Source: Anderseniella sp. | Lineage (GTDB): Bacteria > Pseudomonadota > Alphaproteobacteria > Rhizobiales > Aestuariivirgaceae | Direction: 5' to 3' | DNA length: 48,307 nt | Assembly: GCA_028289645.1 (NCBI GenBank) | Contig: JANQOK010000021.1 | Span: 1-48,307 of the forward strand | Shown: one piece after another, positions 15,771 through 23,315 of the stretch | Position numbering within the stretch: position 1 is the first letter of the stretch | Layout of the letters: each line of letters starts with the position of its first letter | Position numbers and translations under genes: made by a program | Notes under the pieces: generated by a model | The model's database searches: none | Told to the model about the DNA's origin: nothing | The model's input: only the letters and a program-made list of their open reading frames with translations

Positions 15771-16844
15771 TCAGTCGACCGGCCGGATCTTCTGCCTCTC
15801 GCTGACACGGGACATGATATCGATCATCTCGCCGCCGGAACCGGCGAAATTCCACAGCGGTTTTGGCTCCACCATGACCGGATCGCGGGATGGCAGGCCT
15901 TCAACGGCATCGAGCAGGAAACCGGCCTCGGCCGCCTCTTCAGTTGAGTTCGAACTTTTCAGCAGCGCAGAGTCGACTACGGCGCGGGACAGCAGCACCA
16001 GCTTGCGTGGCGTTGATGTCACCGCACGATGGTCAACGGAATTCAACTGCAACCGCTCCAGTTCACGTCCGATTTCCGCATAGATCAGGCGCGCCGCGTT
16101 GATCGCCGGGCGGCACCTGGCCGGCAGATGCGCAATCCCGGACCGGCAGCGCCTGTAATATCTATCGGCAGCCTGCAGCACGCGCCCGGTAACGTGGTTT
16201 ATCGCTTCATCGTGAACCGGCGCGCGCAACCATTCTTCTGCACCAATGCCCGCATCCGCCAACCAGTCACGAGGCAGGTAGAGTCTGCCCCGGCGGGCGT
16301 CCTCGCCGACATCCCGTGCGATGTTGGTCAATTGCATGGCGATACCAAGATCACAGGCTCGGGCAAGGGTTTGCCGGTTCCGCACCCCCATCACCAGTGT
16401 CATCATCACGCCCACGGTCGATGCCACTCGCACACAATAGGACACCACGTCGGAAAGGCTGTCATACCGCCTGTCCTCGGCGTCCCATTGGAACCCCTGC
16501 ATCAGCGCGTCGGGGATGGATCTGGGCATCTGAAACCGCTCGACAATATCCGCAAAGGCCCGGTCGGCCGGCGCCGGCAGCGGATTGCAATTGTAAATCA
16601 GGTCAAGTCGCTCCTTGAGATCGGACAATGCCGCTGCCGGATTGTCAGCTTCGTCCACTGCATCATCGGCAAATCTGCAGAACGCATACATGGCATGGGC
16701 TGACCAGCGCACGTTTGCAGGTAACAGCATGGAGGCAAGGTGAAACGATCTTGATCCTGTCTTGATGGACGCCCTGCACGCAGCGCCATCCGCCCATGTC
16801 GTGTGACCGGGATCGGTGAAGTTCAATGCAATTCGAGGCGCCAT
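15771..16844 (-). CDS. crtB: phytoene synthase
   Basis: CrtB condenses two GGPP molecules to phytoene, the first committed carotenoid step. The 357-residue product has the squalene/phytoene synthase layout: RSFHLASMLLP (32-42), the first Asp-rich motif YAFCRFADDAVDEAD (53-67) and the second NIARDVGEDARRGRLYLP (~173). The start ATG 16844 is only 17 bp from a PpsR palindrome, implying a very short mRNA leader. Confidence 0.96.
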   Translation of the reverse strand: MAPRIALNFTDPGHTTWADGAACRASIKTGSRSFHLASMLLPANVRWSAHAMYAFCRFADDAVDEADNPAAALSDLKERLDLIYNCNPLPAPADRAFADIVERFQMPRSIPDALMQGFQWDAEDRRYDSLSDVVSYCVRVASTVGVMMTLVMGVRNRQTLARACDLGIAMQLTNIARDVGEDARRGRLYLPRDWLADAGIGAEEWLRAPVHDEAINHVTGRVLQAADRYYRRCRSGIAHLPARCRPAINAARLIYAEIGRELERLQLNSVDHRAVTSTPRKLVLLSRAVVDSALLKSSNSTEEAAEAGFLLDAVEGLPSRDPVMVEPKPLWNFAGSGGEMIDIMSRVSERQKIRPVD

Positions 16845-16860: not shown

Positions 16861-16904
16861 TGTCAATTATTATTGACATTAGACACTGTAAAGTAAAAAC
16901 TGAC
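16861..16904. promoter_or_regulatory. tandem PpsR/CrtJ sites, crtB/ATP-grasp divergent promoter
   Basis: TGTCAATTATTATTGACA (16861-16878) is an exact TGT-N12-ACA. A second TGT half-site begins 8 bp later (16887), with GAC, or ACA at N13, as its right half. The pair lies between crtB (-) and the ATP-grasp gene (+) and so links the latter to photosynthesis control. Confidence 0.8.
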
Positions 16905-16927: not shown

Positions 16928-18127
16928 ATGACCAAGACAGTCCTTCTCACACTGGGCCGCCTGCCGAAGGCTCTCGAACTGGCACGTGCGCTGAAAGGCG
17001 CCGGTTGCCGGGTGGTGATCGCGGAACCGTTCAGGTGGCATGTGTGCAAGCCGTCTTCTGCCGTCGACCGGTCAGTTCAGGTTGCCGCCCCCAACTCCAA
17101 CACCCAGCAATATCTCGATGACCTCATGCGCATCATTGCCGAGGAGCGCATTGATGTTGTCGTACCTGTTTCCGAAGAAGCCCTGCACGTGGCCCGCCTC
17201 AAGCCGGTGCTTCCGTCCCATGTCCACCTGTTTTCACCGGGACAGGCGAAACTGCTGCAATTGCATGACAAGCTGAGTTTTGCCCACATCGCCAAGAGCT
17301 ATGGGCTTGATGTGCCGGAGACTTTTTCTGCCAGCGATCCCGCTGCCACGGCGCTGGCACTGGTATACAACCATATCATCAAGCCAGTCCATTCATGTTC
17401 CGGCATCGGCGTCGAGCAGCACGTTGAGGGTACGACGCTGAACCTCTCTCGGACCGCACCTGACAGTGTTGTGCAGGCGTTTGTGCCTGGCCGCCACGTC
17501 AGTTCGTTTTCAGTTGCCCATGAGGGCTGCGAGATTGTGACCGTGCTCTATGAAGGAACGGTGTTTTCCGGCACCGTGGCGGTGTGCTTCACGCGCATCG
17601 AGAAACTCAAACCCGTCAATGACTGGATCAGCCGGTTCATCGACAAGTCCGGTCATTCCGGTTTCATTTCGTTTGATTTCATCGTGAGCGATGAAGGCCG
17701 GGCTTGGGCGATCGAATGCAATCCGCGTGCAACAAGTGGCATTCATTTCCTCAACAATGCCGACCTGGCCCTGGCCATACTGAACCCGGCCCGAAGGCAT
17801 CCCGTCCGGTTCAAGAACAAGCGCTCGTTCCAGCAATCCTACACCACACTGACCGAAGCCTACCGCCACATCTTCCGCCCCCGGCAATTTCTTGCGCGCC
17901 TGAAGCATCTGATCTCGGCCAGGGATGCCGTGTGGTCTGCCCGCGACCCGCTGCCGTTTCTGCTGATGACCCCGATGTCATGGGACATACTCAAGCCCTC
18001 GATGTTCTCAGGTATTTCTCTGGGCGAGGCAGCAACCAGGGACATTGCCTGGTTCGGGCCCGGCGCCAAACCGTCCGGCCCCGAAACCGGAAAGGTCAGC
18101 CTGCATGGCGCCTCACATGGCAAATGA
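16928..18127 (+). CDS. ATP-grasp domain enzyme of unknown substrate, embedded in crt genes
   Basis: A 399-residue protein with an N-terminal Rossmann-like pre-ATP-grasp part (LLTLGRLPKALELARAL, then VVVPVSEEALHVARL) and an ATP-grasp core: HDKLSFAHIAKSYGLDVPET, NHIIKPVHSCSGIGV (nucleotide-binding Lys), VQAFVPGRHVSSFSV and the metal-binding end AIECNPRATSGIHFL (~265). This resembles carbamoyl-phosphate-synthase-like ATP-grasp ligases, which join a carboxylate to an amine or thiol; the substrate here is unknown. ATG 16928 has AGGAAG before it. It is divergent from crtB across PpsR sites, and its 3' end overlaps the convergent P450 by 32 bp. Not a gene I know from standard PGCs. Confidence 0.85.
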   Translation: MTKTVLLTLGRLPKALELARALKGAGCRVVIAEPFRWHVCKPSSAVDRSVQVAAPNSNTQQYLDDLMRIIAEERIDVVVPVSEEALHVARLKPVLPSHVHLFSPGQAKLLQLHDKLSFAHIAKSYGLDVPETFSASDPAATALALVYNHIIKPVHSCSGIGVEQHVEGTTLNLSRTAPDSVVQAFVPGRHVSSFSVAHEGCEIVTVLYEGTVFSGTVAVCFTRIEKLKPVNDWISRFIDKSGHSGFISFDFIVSDEGRAWAIECNPRATSGIHFLNNADLALAILNPARRHPVRFKNKRSFQQSYTTLTEAYRHIFRPRQFLARLKHLISARDAVWSARDPLPFLLMTPMSWDILKPSMFSGISLGEAATRDIAWFGPGAKPSGPETGKVSLHGASHGK

Positions 18128-19478
18128 CCTGTTCAGCCGGGCGCGTCGTCAGGCGCGCTGCCGGACGCACCGAGGCCGGTTCGACCGCGGTAATGTCAAA
18201 CTTGCGCGCCAGCCGGGCAATGATCAGTGCGCTTTCCGCCTGGGCAAAGCCGGCGCCAATACAGGTATGCGGGCCCAGTCCAAACGGAATGTAGGCGCCG
18301 GCGACGAGGTCCTTCTCGCGCTGCGGCGAGAAACGGTCTGGGTCAAACACGTGCGGGTCCTGCCAGTAGTCACGATGGCGATGCACCGTCCATGGCGCGA
18401 TCATCACAAGGGCACCCCGTTTCACCCGCCTGCCGCCAATGCGGGTGTGCTTCAGCGCAACCCTCGGCATGAAGGTGATGGGCGGATAGAGCCGCAGCGT
18501 CTCGCGGAACACGCAGCGGGTGAAGCTGAGCTGCTTTGTGTGTTCGAAACTGACATCCCCGCCGCCGGTGACTTGCTCGACTTCTTCACGAATTCGCCTC
18601 AGTACGCCAGATTGCTGCGACAGGATGTAAAACACCCAGGTCAACACGCTGGCTGTGGTCTCATGACCGGCCAGAAAAAACACGCCCAGCTGGTCAATGA
18701 GTTCATCGCGGGTGAACGGTTTGCCGGTCTGCGCGTCACGTGCTGCGATGACCGCGCTGGCGATATCGTTGTACCTGCCCTGTGCGTCACCGAGATGGGT
18801 GTCCACAAGCTGACCCAGGTGCCGGCGGATGCGGGTGCACGCAGCAATCACCTCCGGCGGCTGATGCACTTTCGACCAGGCCGGCTCGGTGATCAGCCGC
18901 CATATTTCCACCTGCGCCACCGAGCGTTCAAAAATGGTGAAGTCCTCAAACACGTCGTGGGCGATCTCGCTCTCAAGCGAGGTGGAAAACACGGTCCGGC
19001 AAATGATATCAGCGGTCAAATGGCTCATCGCCAGGTCGAGCGAGAAGCTGTCACCCGACGCGGCCAGGTCGTCGAGCCGCGCCTCATAATCATTGACGGC
19101 GGCCTGCATGGACGAAAATGCCAGGTTGATGCGCATCATCGAAAACGCCGGATCGATCATCGCGCGCTGGCGCCGCCACTTCTCGCCGTCGGTGACGAAT
19201 ATCGACTGGCCGATCAGGGGTTCAAGCGCCCCCACCATGAGATCGCTCTTGGGAAAAATCTCCCCGTCGTCCATCAGAATCTCGCGTATGTACGCAGGAT
19301 CGTTGAACAGCATGGTGGAGCGCCGCGACATGCCGAGGTGGCCGACCTTCATCTTGTAGGCGGCCGCCGGCAGCAGGCTGAGAAGATCGCCGTCGCCGCG
19401 CCACACAGTGCGTGCCAGCGCAGCAACCGACCACAGCGAATAGGGCTTTGGCGGGATGTAGGCGTCAGTGGCGGACAT
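18096..19478 (-). CDS. cytochrome P450 within the carotenoid gene region
   Basis: A complete, soluble-looking P450 of about 460 residues with all the usual landmarks: GEKWRRQRAMIDPAFS (C-helix), the I-helix oxygen-activation motif AGHETT (~270), the K-helix FRETLRLYPP with ExxR (~325), and the heme loop FGLGPHTCIGAG with Cys406. The layout is close to fatty-acid/carotenoid-type bacterial P450s. The substrate is not evident; a carotenoid or prenyl chain is an inference from its place between crtB and crtD. ATG 19478 is chosen, since the upstream TTG 19493 is less likely; no strong ribosome site is visible. It is divergent from the membrane-protein gene at 19529 and overlaps the ATP-grasp 3' end. 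Confidence 0.9.
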   Translation of the reverse strand: MSATDAYIPPKPYSLWSVAALARTVWRGDGDLLSLLPAAAYKMKVGHLGMSRRSTMLFNDPAYIREILMDDGEIFPKSDLMVGALEPLIGQSIFVTDGEKWRRQRAMIDPAFSMMRINLAFSSMQAAVNDYEARLDDLAASGDSFSLDLAMSHLTADIICRTVFSTSLESEIAHDVFEDFTIFERSVAQVEIWRLITEPAWSKVHQPPEVIAACTRIRRHLGQLVDTHLGDAQGRYNDIASAVIAARDAQTGKPFTRDELIDQLGVFFLAGHETTASVLTWVFYILSQQSGVLRRIREEVEQVTGGGDVSFEHTKQLSFTRCVFRETLRLYPPITFMPRVALKHTRIGGRRVKRGALVMIAPWTVHRHRDYWQDPHVFDPDRFSPQREKDLVAGAYIPFGLGPHTCIGAGFAQAESALIIARLARKFDITAVEPASVRPAARLTTRPAEQVICHVRRHAG

Positions 19479-19528
19479 GGCACAATCGGGCAAGACGTTG
19501 GTTCACTGCCAAAGTATCAGGTGAAAAC

Positions 19529-20299
19529 ATGACCCTGTCGAGCCTAGACATATTCCACCTTCTCGTGGCCATGCATATCGTCACCGGCGCAATCGGACTG
19601 GTCACATTCTGGATCCCCGTACTGGCGGGCAAAGGCAACGAACGCCATAAGTACTGGGGCCGCATTTTTACCGCCATGATGATCATTACCGGCATTGTGG
19701 CGATGGGCATGGCAACCATGACCTTGCTCTATCCCATGGCAACTCATCCCCACCTGGTCACGCATGAGGTGTTCTCAGACCCCGAAAACGTCCGCGTGGT
19801 TTTTGGCTGGATGATGCTTTACCTCGCCATCCTGACGGTCAACCTGGCCTGGTACGGCTGGATGTGCGTTACCAACAAGCGCGTGCATCACCAGTTGAAC
19901 AAGGGGCCCATGAACCTGTTCCTGCAGATCCTGCTAACCGTGGCCGCCGGCAATTGCATCTGGCAGGGCATCAAGCTTGGCCAACCGCTGGTCATGGGCA
20001 TGTCCATTGTCGGGTTTGCGACAGTGGCCACCAATATGTGGTTCATCTTTCATCCACGGCCAGGCCCAGTCTACTGGCTTAAGGAACATATCAAGGCCCA
20101 CGTCGGCACCGGAATCTCTGTCTACACGGCCTTTTTCGCCTTTGGCGCCGTCCGCCTGATGCCTGAACTGGCACTGACCCCGGTGCTATGGGCCATACCG
20201 CTGGTCACGGGCGTGTCTCTGATCCTGTATCACCAGCGCGCGGTGTCGCGCAAAAAACAGGTCCAGCCTGGTTCGCAGACCCAGGTTGCTGCCGAGTGA
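19529..20299 (+). CDS. multi-spanning membrane protein (DUF2306-like) upstream of crtD
   Basis: A 256-residue protein with about seven predicted membrane helices. The opening MHIVTGAIGLVTFW and GNERHKYWGRIF resemble DUF2306-like membrane proteins, in which a His and an [RH]xxGR motif recur; assignment to that family is tentative. Further His residues lie near helices (TNKRVHHQ, KEHIKAHVGTG), so heme or metal binding is possible but not shown. The start ATG 19529 follows CAGGTG. The stop TGA shares a base with the crtD ATG (TGATG), so it is probably co-translated with crtD. It is divergent from the P450 over only 50 bp. Confidence 0.75.
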   Translation: MTLSSLDIFHLLVAMHIVTGAIGLVTFWIPVLAGKGNERHKYWGRIFTAMMIITGIVAMGMATMTLLYPMATHPHLVTHEVFSDPENVRVVFGWMMLYLAILTVNLAWYGWMCVTNKRVHHQLNKGPMNLFLQILLTVAAGNCIWQGIKLGQPLVMGMSIVGFATVATNMWFIFHPRPGPVYWLKEHIKAHVGTGISVYTAFFAFGAVRLMPELALTPVLWAIPLVTGVSLILYHQRAVSRKKQVQPGSQTQVAAE

Positions 20300-21783
20300 T
20301 GGCCGCCGGAAAAGTCATTGTCGTCGGTGCAGGTATCGGAGGATTGAGCGCAGCTCTCGATCTTGCATGTGCCGGCTGCGACGTCACGGTACTGGAACGG
20401 GCGGCAGCACCGGGCGGCAAGATGCGCCGGGTACAGGCAGGTTCGGCCAGCATTGACGCAGGGCCCACCGTGTTCACCATGCGCTGGATTTTCGAGCAGA
20501 TGTTTACTGACGCCGGCGAGACGCTCGAAGACCACCTCAATTTGACTGGGGCCGAACTGCTGGCACGTCATGCCTGGCGCAGCGGCGGCAAACTGGACCT
20601 GTTCGCCGACATCGAGCGTTCCGCAGACGCCATCCGCTTGTTTGCGGGCGCTGAAGACGCGCAGGGCTATCTGGATTTCTGTGCCCGCAGCAAGGACATT
20701 TTCAGGACGCTGAAACACAGCTTCATTGCCGCCCAGCGCCCCTCGCCAGCTGGACTGGTTGGGCGCGTGGGACTGACCAACCTCGCGGCCATGTGGCGGA
20801 CGGCGCCGTTTTCGACCCTGTGGAGGGAACTGGGCAGGCATTTCCGCGATCCGCGGCTGCGGCAGCTGTTCGGCCGTTACGCGACTTATGTCGGTTCATC
20901 GCCGTGGCTGGCCCCGGCAACACTGATGCTGGTGGCACATGTGGAGCAGGACGGCGTATGGCTGGTAGACGGCGGCATGCACGCTGTCGCCAACGCCGTA
21001 AAATCGGTGGCAGAGGCCAAGGGGACAGACTTCCGGTTCAATTCACATGTTGATGAAATCCTCTGCGTTGCAGGTAAGGTTTCCGGCATCCGACTGGCTG
21101 GCGGCGAGCAACTGGCATGCGATGCAATGGTCTTTAACGGTGACGTTTCTGCGCTTGGCACTGGCCTGCTCGGTAAAGGAATGTCCGGTGCTGCCCCGCC
21201 CACTTCAACGCGCGACCGCTCGTTGTCAGCCACCACATGGTGCGAACATACGGTGACCGGCGGTTTTGACCTGGATTATCACAACGTCTTCTTTGCTGAA
21301 GACTACGCCCGGGAGTTCGAGGCTGTTTTCGATCACAGGACTGTCACCGAAACCCCTACCGTGTACATCTGCGCGCAGGACCGCATGAACGGCATTAGAC
21401 CGGAAGGGCCGGAACGCCTGCTGCTGCTGATCAACGCGCCTGCAGACGGTGACACCAAAGAATTCAGCGCGCAGCAGATGACTGATCTCAAGGGCCGAAC
21501 CCATGGCTTGCTGCGCGATTGCGGCCTGCATATCGCCAATACAGATGACGGCGTCGCGACGAACCCCAGTGACTTCAACCAGTTGTTCCCCGCTACAGGT
21601 GGGTCGCTGTACGGCCGCGCCAGCCACGGCATGATGGCGAGTTTTGAGCGCCCCGGCGCGGTCAGCAGAGTGCCCGGACTTTATCTGGCTGGCGGATCCG
21701 TCCACCCCGGCCCCGGCGTGCCCATGGCCGCCATGTCCGGCCGGCTGGCGGCATCCAGGCTGCTTCAGGATTTGTCCCGCTGA
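20299..21783 (+). CDS. crtD: 1-hydroxycarotenoid 3,4-desaturase
   Basis: CrtD introduces the 3,4 double bond in 1-hydroxy (and methoxy) carotenoids. The 494-residue product is a CrtI-type FAD oxidoreductase: the dinucleotide-binding VVGAGIGGLSAALDLA (8-23), the ERAAAPGGKMRR region, and the C-terminal FAD signature LYLAGGSVHPGPGVPMAAMSG. It is told from CrtI by its CrtD-like core (YATYVGSSPWLAPATL) and by the presence of a separate crtI next door. ATG 20299 (or GTG 20296) is used, coupled to the upstream membrane-protein gene. The 3' end overlaps crtI by 19 bp (convergent). Confidence 0.9.
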   Translation: MAAGKVIVVGAGIGGLSAALDLACAGCDVTVLERAAAPGGKMRRVQAGSASIDAGPTVFTMRWIFEQMFTDAGETLEDHLNLTGAELLARHAWRSGGKLDLFADIERSADAIRLFAGAEDAQGYLDFCARSKDIFRTLKHSFIAAQRPSPAGLVGRVGLTNLAAMWRTAPFSTLWRELGRHFRDPRLRQLFGRYATYVGSSPWLAPATLMLVAHVEQDGVWLVDGGMHAVANAVKSVAEAKGTDFRFNSHVDEILCVAGKVSGIRLAGGEQLACDAMVFNGDVSALGTGLLGKGMSGAAPPTSTRDRSLSATTWCEHTVTGGFDLDYHNVFFAEDYAREFEAVFDHRTVTETPTVYICAQDRMNGIRPEGPERLLLLINAPADGDTKEFSAQQMTDLKGRTHGLLRDCGLHIANTDDGVATNPSDFNQLFPATGGSLYGRASHGMMASFERPGAVSRVPGLYLAGGSVHPGPGVPMAAMSGRLAASRLLQDLSR

Positions 21784-23315
21784 ACTGCAACATTTGCGGG
21801 ATCGGGCACCAGGTCAGCGACAATGCTGGCGGATGACGCGACGCCCGGCAAACCGGCTCCCGGGTGAGTGCCGGCTCCGGCCAGGTACAAGCCGTCGACC
21901 TCTTCACTCTTGTTGTGCGGGCGGAACCAGGCGCTTTGAAACAGGTTTGGTTCCATCGCAAAGGCAGCGCCCTTGTACGACAGCAACCTGTCCTGAAAGT
22001 CCTGCGGAGTGAGTATGTGCGAGGTAACGATAACATCGCCGAGGCCCGGCATCAGGGTGTCTTCCAGCCGCTTCTGGACAGCAGCTCGGTAGATCTCCGA
22101 CTGGGCCTTCCAGTCGGTTCCGCTGTCCAGATGCGGCACCGGTGAAAGCACATAGAATGCATCACAACCCTCCGGCGCCAATGACGCATCGCTCGCGGTG
22201 GGACGGTGCAGGTACAGGCTGAAGTCGTCCGTCAACGTGTGCCGCTTGAAGATATCGCGCAGCAGGCCCTTGTAGCGAGGGCCCAGCACCATCGTGTGGT
22301 GATAGACATCATCGAATTTGCGGCTGGTGCCGAAGTACCAGACAAACAGGCTCATCGAATAAGTCGCACGGGCCAGCTTGTGGTCGCTCCAGCGCCTGCG
22401 GCCATGGTGCGCCAGCAACGTGCCGTAGGTGAAGGCGGGATCCGCATTGGATACGACAATGTCCGCCGCCAGTGTCTCACCATTGACCAGTTCCACACCT
22501 GCGGCACGTCCCTGGTCCACGAGAATGCGCGACACTTCCGCATTATAGCGGATAGTGCCGCCATTGCGTTTCACCAGCCCGGCAATGCCGTTGACCAGCG
22601 CACCGGTTCCGCCCTCGGCATAGTGCACACCGTAGCGGCTCTCAAGATGCGCGATCAGGCAGTAATACGAAGTCGTGGTGAACGGGTTGCCGCCGATCAG
22701 CAGCGGATGGAAACTGAAGGCAATACGGAGCCTCTCATCGCGGAAGTAGTCGCACACCTTTGAATGAACCGACCGGTATCCGCCAAGACGCACAAGGTCG
22801 AACATCGTCCGCAACGTAAAAGCCAAGGAATGGAACGGCTTGTCGGCTAGGTCCTGAAACGCCACCTTGAAGATGCGGCCGCTGGCTTCCATGAAGCGTT
22901 CGTAGCCGGCCACGTCCTTCGGCTCAAAGCGGGCAACCTCTGCTTTCATGGCTTCAGGGTCGGCGGAGTAGCTCAACACCGAGCCATCATCAAAACGAAT
23001 CTTGTAAAACGGATCACACGGCCTGAGCGTGACATCGTCAGCCATCTTGTGGCCACAGGCCGTCCACAGGTCTTCGAACACGTAAGGCGCGGTTATGATT
23101 GTGGGACCGGCGTCAAAGGTAAACCCGTCGCGCTTGTATACATAGGCCCGCCCCCCCGGACCGTCGAGTTTTTCCAGCACGGTTACACGGTATCCCTTTG
23201 CGGCGATCCGCGCCGCCGCAGCCAGTCCGCCTACACCGCTGCCGATGACAATGGCATGAGCACGATCATCACGTGCGGCATCCGGGTCGGTCGAGATTTC
23301 CGTTTTTGTCAACAT
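21765..23315 (-). CDS. crtI: phytoene desaturase
   Basis: CrtI performs the successive desaturations of phytoene to neurosporene or lycopene. The 516-residue product has the FAD-binding VIGSGVGGLAAAARIAAKGY (23-42), then KLDGPGGRAYVYKRDGF, DAGPTIIT and the C-terminal LYLAGAGTHPGAGLPG signature. ATG 23315 lies inside a PpsR palindrome and has no ribosome site. No other ATG, GTG or TTG upstream in frame is available because a TAA occurs four codons before it. Leaderless translation is possible. It follows bchO by 43 bp on the same strand, so it may also be read from the bchIDO transcript. Confidence 0.95.
   Translation of the reverse strand: MLTKTEISTDPDAARDDRAHAIVIGSGVGGLAAAARIAAKGYRVTVLEKLDGPGGRAYVYKRDGFTFDAGPTIITAPYVFEDLWTACGHKMADDVTLRPCDPFYKIRFDDGSVLSYSADPEAMKAEVARFEPKDVAGYERFMEASGRIFKVAFQDLADKPFHSLAFTLRTMFDLVRLGGYRSVHSKVCDYFRDERLRIAFSFHPLLIGGNPFTTTSYYCLIAHLESRYGVHYAEGGTGALVNGIAGLVKRNGGTIRYNAEVSRILVDQGRAAGVELVNGETLAADIVVSNADPAFTYGTLLAHHGRRRWSDHKLARATYSMSLFVWYFGTSRKFDDVYHHTMVLGPRYKGLLRDIFKRHTLTDDFSLYLHRPTASDASLAPEGCDAFYVLSPVPHLDSGTDWKAQSEIYRAAVQKRLEDTLMPGLGDVIVTSHILTPQDFQDRLLSYKGAAFAMEPNLFQSAWFRPHNKSEEVDGLYLAGAGTHPGAGLPGVASSASIVADLVPDPANVAVQRDKS

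Follow-up and report, generated by a model that had tools for sequence, protein, structure and literature searches.

In a 48,307-nucleotide stretch of DNA from Anderseniella sp. (contig JANQOK010000021.1 of assembly GCA_028289645.1; hereafter the window), which covers part of a photosynthesis gene cluster, genes for an ATP-grasp ligase, a cytochrome P450 and a seven-helix membrane protein (MP) lie together among carotenoid (crt) genes. The P450 and MP genes, with or without the ATP-grasp gene, form a real module that is closely tied to phototrophy. On balance, the three genes probably constitute a tailoring module found in anoxygenic phototrophs that has apparently spread between lineages. P450 and MP would be its constant oxidising pair, and the ATP-grasp enzyme an optional partner for a later ligation; the substrate would be a carotenoid, likeliest at the end group of the spirilloxanthin series.

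Three genes between crtB and crtD

The genes of the module and their neighbours are located in the window as follows.

16928..18127, plus strand: ATP-grasp ligase gene, 399 amino acids (aa), optional partner of the module
18096..19478, minus strand: cytochrome P450 gene, about 460 aa, module core
19529..20299, plus strand: MP gene, seven-helix membrane protein of 256 aa, weakly DUF2306-like, module core, coupled to crtD
15771..16844, minus strand: crtB, phytoene synthase (Pfam SQS_PSY, 238 bits; cut-off 26)
20299..21783, plus strand: crtD (NCBIfam NF045637, 681 bits; cut-off 580), translationally coupled to the MP gene
21765..23315, minus strand: crtI (TIGR02734, CrtI family, 606 bits; cut-off 238)

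The arrangement previously read from the sequence alone proved accurate: the coordinates between crtB and crtD, the overlap of P450 with the 3' end of the ATP-grasp gene, the 50 bp between the divergent P450 and MP genes, and the TGATG overlap of MP with crtD at 20299 all check out. The overlap of the ATP-grasp and P450 3' ends is 32 bp, and the 50 bp are counted from ATG to ATG. The crtB and ATP-grasp genes are divergent, with 83 bp between them. The mechanically called open reading frame (ORF) of P450 begins at TTG 19493, but the ATG at 19478 agrees better with a close relative. A congeneric genome (G005, locus L008) has the same gene order, with 83% (ATP-grasp), 92% (P450) and 86% (MP) identity.

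The P450 scored 235 bits against Pfam p450 (PF00067; gathering cut-off 22.8). In an alignment of 14 rows, including 13 relatives at 57-92% identity, the cysteine heme ligand Cys405, the ExxR motif (E325xxR328) and AGHET were kept (A4 numbering); by score and motifs it is a PF00067 member. Its best sequence match in the PDB was LUTEIN DEFICIENT 5 (6j94, 170 bits), which we take to be CYP97A3, followed by a 'putative cytochrome P450' (7wzl, 160 bits). Its two best NCBIfam matches were terpene oxygenases (171 and 170 bits), far under the respective cut-offs.

The ATP-grasp protein is a member of Pfam ATP-grasp_3 (PF02655; 35.8 bits, gathering cut-off 23.2). It is homologous to NCBIfam PRK06849 (NF005315) without being a member (255.4 bits, curated cut-off 406), and it shows detectable homology to the ATP-grasp encoded in a mycosporine-type cluster. 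The ATP-grasp motif is intact, as is the fold in an AlphaFold2 (AF2) prediction. MP had no Pfam match at E ≤ 0.001; DUF2306 (PF10067) matched 6 of 14 MP members at E ≤ 5, with a best E of 5e-4. Four histidines (H16, H40, H73 and H187) are invariant in the 14-row MP alignment, and the AF2 model (pLDDT 85) has seven long helices.

The module recurs in phototrophs of three classes

Checked for co-occurrence in related phototrophs, the trio was found in three classes (Alpha-, Beta- and Gammaproteobacteria); its gene order differs among loci, and it mostly adjoins crt or bch genes. The photosynthesis-linked system that the sequence-only reading had proposed is real, and wider than could be known from the window. 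Because the trio occurs in other families and classes, its neighbourhood in the window is not due to chance.

Of 60 genomes, comprising the window's own and 59 relatives, three carried the ATP-grasp gene: the window's own, G005 and G056, the last from another family. A contig scan with a profile from the alignment of these three ATP-grasps yielded 14 loci, mostly from metagenome-assembled genomes, one of which (L019, JABDRA010000577, Anderseniella sp.) was the contig of G005 L008 again. The loci were from Halieaceae, Luminiphilus, a gammaproteobacterium, Granulosicoccaceae, Methyloversatilis (three), Nitrosomonadaceae, Rhodospirillales, the Rhizobiaceae group and Cohaesibacteraceae. One locus (L022) ends within the ATP-grasp gene; in all the remaining 13, P450 lies near the ATP-grasp gene (a contig end cuts P450 or ATP-grasp in L018 and L020), and MP is present in 12, not in L011. 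In the latter, from one Methyloversatilis bin, P450 and ATP-grasp are kept with no MP between crtD and P450 (L011:8193-8592). Taking reaction-centre genes (PF00124) as the marker of phototrophy, we found them in 14 of the 15 ATP-grasp-positive genomes covered, the genome of L013 being outside the count; the exception, G060 (L009), is metagenome-assembled.

We then counted P450 relatives in 385 Alphaproteobacteria (taken to be the window's class; cut-off E ≤ 1e-110), 120 Halieaceae (taken to be the family of G064) and 121 genomes of the Methyloversatilis family, the last two groups being chosen because they were known to hold the module. Few candidates were scored per genome (at most 4 for P450 or ATP-grasp in Alphaproteobacteria, at most 13 for P450 in Halieaceae), with misses possible, and the Fisher p values given here ignore shared ancestry. 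In Alphaproteobacteria, P450 was present in 4 of 26 PF00124-positive genomes, one of them the window's own, and in 0 of 359 others (p 1.7e-5). Of the Halieaceae, 41 had the P450, 42 had PF00124 genes and 37 had both (p 5e-21), and in the Methyloversatilis family the P450 was confined to 2 of 5 PF00124-positive genomes (0 of 116 others; p 1.4e-3). In a plasmid collection, the closest P450 was 39.1% identical, versus at least 52% for the P450 matches in the three samples. The sequence-only reading had named as evidence against it that the genes should mainly keep unrelated company away from photosynthesis clusters; instead, in the samples searched, the P450 clade is nearly confined to phototrophs and in most cases is located next to crt or bch genes.

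The neighbourhood is kept while gene order varies

Gene order was compared in 47 loci: 18 from the window and earlier searches, 27 of 30 Halieaceae loci, and L093 and L098. The 30 were those of the 41 Halieaceae P450 matches that had a locus; L062, L063 and L065 were left out as duplicates of L021-type, L009-type and L093 genomes. P450 and MP are neighbours in 43 loci (42 divergent, 1 convergent). The other four are L011 (no MP), L052 and L053 (crtA instead) and L076 (contig end). Both ATP-grasp and P450 were found in 35 loci and lie within 150 bp of each other in 31 of these; the two genes are convergent in 27 and in P450-ATP-grasp tandem in 5 (four with a 4-bp overlap), and in L017 ATP-grasp immediately follows MP. 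MP and crtD are in tandem in 33 of the 34 loci where both were found, and within 150 bp in 32.

In G056, P450 and MP are divergent and are followed by an unknown gene, crtI, ATP-grasp, bchI and bchD; the gene between MP and crtI (L006:12990-14081) encodes 363 aa with no Pfam match. In G489, a single 4.35-Mb contig, crtD with MP, P450 and ATP-grasp lies about 2.6 Mb from pufLM, with no other recognisable crt or bch gene in the 20 kb read at this locus. A crtD gene outside the main cluster has been reported for Congregibacter litoralis KT71 (PMC3176799). Order varies, yet the neighbourhood is kept, which suggests that the linkage is selected; genes that stay together through such rearrangements are likely to share a function. 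Patristic distances were correlated between P450 and MP (r 0.88) and between P450 and ATP-grasp (r 0.83), uncorrected for shared species history.

The module also appears to have moved as a unit. Relative to the window, some Halieaceae have 70-72% identity in P450 and 51-57% in ATP-grasp, with crtD at 65% in G458 and 50% in G061, whereas G056, of the window's own order, has 62% (P450), 45% (ATP-grasp) and 51% (crtD). For pufL/pufM the gap is smaller (76-77%/73-75% in Halieaceae, 74%/70% in G056), and for crtI it is reversed (57% versus 65%). The higher identity of the module to these Halieaceae than to G056 suggests transfer as a unit. In a Granulosicoccaceae locus (L015, 5792-10005), an IS66 transposase fragment and a sulfotransferase-family gene lie beside the module, consistent with mobility.

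P450 and MP are the core, and ATP-grasp is optional

Of the three-gene unit originally proposed, P450 and MP are constant; the ATP-grasp gene is not. In a search of 20 genomes at E ≤ 1e-15, it was not found in any of 13 P450-positive genomes (G199, G167, G176 and ten Halieaceae), 12 of which (all but G539) were already known to have none beside P450. The same search found it in the controls G489 and G537 and in G568, but not in G468, G490, G554 or G571. In G199, an alphaproteobacterium, bchI, P450 and MP follow in order with no ATP-grasp. ATP-grasp is dispensable, and P450 and MP are the core of the module.

Two Halieaceae loci without ATP-grasp (L092:9516-10911 and L096:9476-10766) have, in its usual place, a gene for a 131-aa protein with no Pfam match; L092 also has there a gene of the fatty-acid-hydroxylase superfamily (PF04116), and the ORFs of L096 look similar. 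G568 carries ATP-grasp (C104:8857-9987) and PF00124 genes with no P450 match, perhaps owing to a contig break. At E ≤ 1e-25, the ATP-grasp profile also retrieved three distant homologues in Alphaproteobacteria (G175, G381 and G396), of which G396 is a phototroph. A distant relative in L054 lies beside a weakly AMP-ligase-like gene and one in L055 beside a Rieske oxygenase gene, with metallo-hydrolase-like genes (judged by eye) nearby; these may be metabolite clusters of their own.

In two alphaproteobacterial phototrophs, G176 and G167, crtA is directly followed by a P450 of this clade; the two loci are L052:8901-11110 and L053:8757-10866, and the CrtA scores were 308 bits in G176 and 292 bits in G167, for a cut-off of 300. 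The order in G176 is bchI, crtA and directly P450, while no bch gene was recognised in 20 kb of G167. Neither MP nor ATP-grasp was recognised beside these pairs in the 20 kb read for each, and neither genome has the ATP-grasp gene.

Promoter palindromes and other genes of the window

The divergent promoter between crtB and ATP-grasp contains a PpsR/CrtJ-type palindrome, one of four matches in the window to the strict pattern TGTNAN8TNACA:

16861..16878, no strand: crtB/ATP-grasp divergent promoter, TGTCAATTATTATTGACA
11665: upstream of bchC
13864: between crtE and crtC
23307: spans the start of crtI

Four matches compare with 0.43 expected, and 0 of 100 shuffles reached four; the strict pattern was picked after the looser TGTN12ACA proved not to be above chance in the window (12 versus 8.9 expected). 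The palindrome is conserved at the same place in G005, so at the level of the genus it is common to crtB and ATP-grasp, and as a putative operator it would place the ATP-grasp promoter in a PpsR regulon. The control by PpsR suggested earlier for this promoter thus finds a counterpart in the window and G005 but not elsewhere: within 200 bp upstream of ATP-grasp, the strict palindrome was present in these 2 of 15 loci checked and in none of the other 13. Upstream of P450 it was present in 1 of 18 loci (L017).

The window has acyclic-pathway carotenoid genes, namely crtC, crtD and a crtF-like gene. CrtC scored 285 bits on its NCBIfam model (cut-off 400), the crtF-like product is a Methyltransf_2 protein by Pfam, and the best NCBIfam match of the crtB product was CrtB at 393.5 bits, under the cut-off of 500. 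Family models back bchE, bchI, bchG, pufL and pufM; bchO is above its NCBIfam cut-off, and tspO was identified by Pfam. The names bchC, bchX, bchY, bchZ, pufC, crtE and bchD are presumptive, given from position and general sequence resemblance.

Proposed function and competing explanations

We propose that P450 and the membrane-embedded MP, a distant relative of DUF2306 proteins, would oxidise a carotenoid end group. The ATP-grasp enzyme, a distant relative of MysC, would activate with ATP the acid so made (a carboxylate or vinylogous acid) and join it to an amine or similar nucleophile. P450 has a constant companion in MP, or in CrtA in G176 and G167, which suggests that it and a second oxygenating protein act on one and the same end of the carotenoid; MP itself may be an oxidative component. 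The optional occurrence of ATP-grasp suggests that some lineages skip the last step. The earlier suggestion of a tailoring step on a carotenoid or some other product is partly supported, a carotenoid role being its best form in view of the MP-crtD coupling, the crtA-P450 pairs and the match to LUTEIN DEFICIENT 5.

Several observations weigh against this proposal. Four P450-positive Halieaceae had no PF00124 match (G060, G459, G550 and G566), and five PF00124-positive ones had no P450 (G468, G490, G554, G568 and G571). No crt or bch gene was recognised in L009, L015 and L021 (13-21 kb each) or in L064 (3.8 kb), and crtA was absent from 16 of 18 P450 or module genomes at E ≤ 1e-8. The lead of LUTEIN DEFICIENT 5 over the uncharacterised 7wzl is a small margin of 10 bits, and the window's MP, with 15.3 bits on DUF2306 against a gathering cut-off of 31.6, is not a member of that family. 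Finally, cultured Halieaceae have been reported to contain only spirilloxanthin and bacteriochlorophyll a by ultraviolet-visible (UV-vis) spectroscopy and high-performance liquid chromatography with photodiode-array detection (PMC2654016, PMC3679898). Since these spectra match spirilloxanthin, the change, if made in those strains, should leave the conjugated chain untouched or concern a minor pigment. KT71 has a polar yellow-orange pigment, seen for example in the dark, that was left unidentified and that the authors doubt to be a carotenoid (PMC2654016).

The absence of an unusual carotenoid from named Halieaceae by UV-vis (PMC3679898) would also fit a module that alters another hydrophobic molecule of the photosynthetic membrane (a quinone, the bacteriochlorophyll tail, a hopanoid or an acyl-amine lipid) and lies among crt genes by co-regulation only. 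ATP-grasp adjoins bchI in L006, L011-L013 and L018, P450 does so in L051, and the module of L017 is near bchG- and ppsR-like genes. This alternative is unlikely but deserves serious weight; the coupling of MP to crtD, the crtA genes beside P450 and a carotenoid hydroxylase as the nearest solved P450 sequence speak against it.

A more far-reaching form of the carotenoid proposal, offered tentatively and rather doubtful as a whole, is that the module is the first biosynthetic route by which photosynthetic bacteria conjugate a carotenoid to an amine or amino acid. P450 and a DUF2306-type membrane oxidase would make an acid or vinylogous acid on a spirilloxanthin-type end, and the MysC-like ATP-grasp would couple the amine; with the change outside the chromophore, the UV-vis spectrum would read as spirilloxanthin.

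It is improbable that the module breaks down or diverts carotenoids, yielding a small apocarotenoid or amide that the cell would release for signalling or defence. Distant ATP-grasp homologues do occur in secondary-metabolite-like operons (L054, L055 and L056), and genes for resistance-nodulation-division (RND)-type pumps adjoin the module in L009 and L014; L021 has an equally long gene. However, with 22% identity between L009 and L014, the pump genes are not a conserved part of the module.

That P450 and MP chiefly detoxify or repair photo-oxidised pigments or lipids, with no defined pigment made, appears very unlikely: the link to phototrophy in strictly aerobic Halieaceae would fit (PMC3679898), but the coupling to crtD or crtA and the palindrome common with crtB in the window point to biosynthesis. 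Although block transfer can hold unrelated genes together, the idea of passengers with no functional tie to photosynthesis is already contradicted by repeated rearrangement with the neighbourhood kept, by P450 identities of 57-72% across classes and by the presence of P450 in 37 of the 42 phototrophic genomes sampled from Halieaceae.

The literature searched, part of it available incompletely and subscription papers lying outside the search, gave no description of the module. Within that literature, a P450 present in those 37 phototrophic genomes of a mainly marine gammaproteobacterial family and in scattered alpha- and betaproteobacteria is undescribed. If the module tailors a light-harvesting carotenoid, the pigment assignment of much-studied aerobic phototrophs is incomplete. 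The module offers candidate genes for carotenoid oxidations of the rhodopinal and gemmatoxanthin kind, the enzymes for which are reported as unknown, and a bacterial setting for learning the function of DUF2306-like membrane proteins.

Comparison with known systems

Plant carotenoid hydroxylases of the CYP97 type resemble the module in that LUTEIN DEFICIENT 5 is the closest solved P450 by sequence, at remote similarity; family level among cytochromes P450 is set by rule at about 40% identity. CYP97A3 works on ring end groups, whereas the window has acyclic-pathway genes. With the MysC-type ATP-grasp, the ATP-grasp protein has in common the broad family (the PRK06849 model), an IECNPR segment and an LPFL tail; it differs in having 24% identity to it, and among ten window neighbours scanned with Pfam there was no dehydroquinate-synthase-like cyclase (DHQ_synthase) and no Methyltransf_3, so that a mycosporine cluster is not indicated.

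The spheroidene monooxygenase branch is similar in adding an O2-dependent oxidation of the end group to the crt pathway, and its gene crtA adjoins the P450 clade in G176 and G167. It differs in that CrtA is not a P450 (PMC10604819) and in being missing from most genomes searched; no crtA match was found in G000 at E ≤ 1e-8, which does not place it on this branch. A P450 is labelled in the figure legend of a Citromicrobium cluster (PMC3338782). For one set of marine gammaproteobacterial K-strategists, an 11-fold higher abundance of P450 genes has been noted and linked to degradation (PMC4391266).

PraC, needed for epoxidation in pramanicin synthesis, is the sole functionally assigned DUF2306 protein found in the literature searched (PMC12895699). 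Like MP, it is a membrane protein encoded beside other oxidative tailoring genes, and the DUF2306 model also weakly matches MP. Unlike MP, which is under the DUF2306 cut-off, it is fungal, with 393 aa, five predicted helices and a polyketide-peptide substrate.

Rhodopinal and gemmatoxanthin, finally, are linear carotenoids of phototrophs that carry oxidised groups, and the genes for the oxidation are reported to be unknown (PMC10604819, PMC8342508). The oxidised groups of gemmatoxanthin include a carboxyl at C16 and an aldehyde at C19', and a cruH-like candidate has been proposed for the carboxyl (PMC8342508); this C16 carboxyl is the kind of group that the ATP-grasp enzyme could use.

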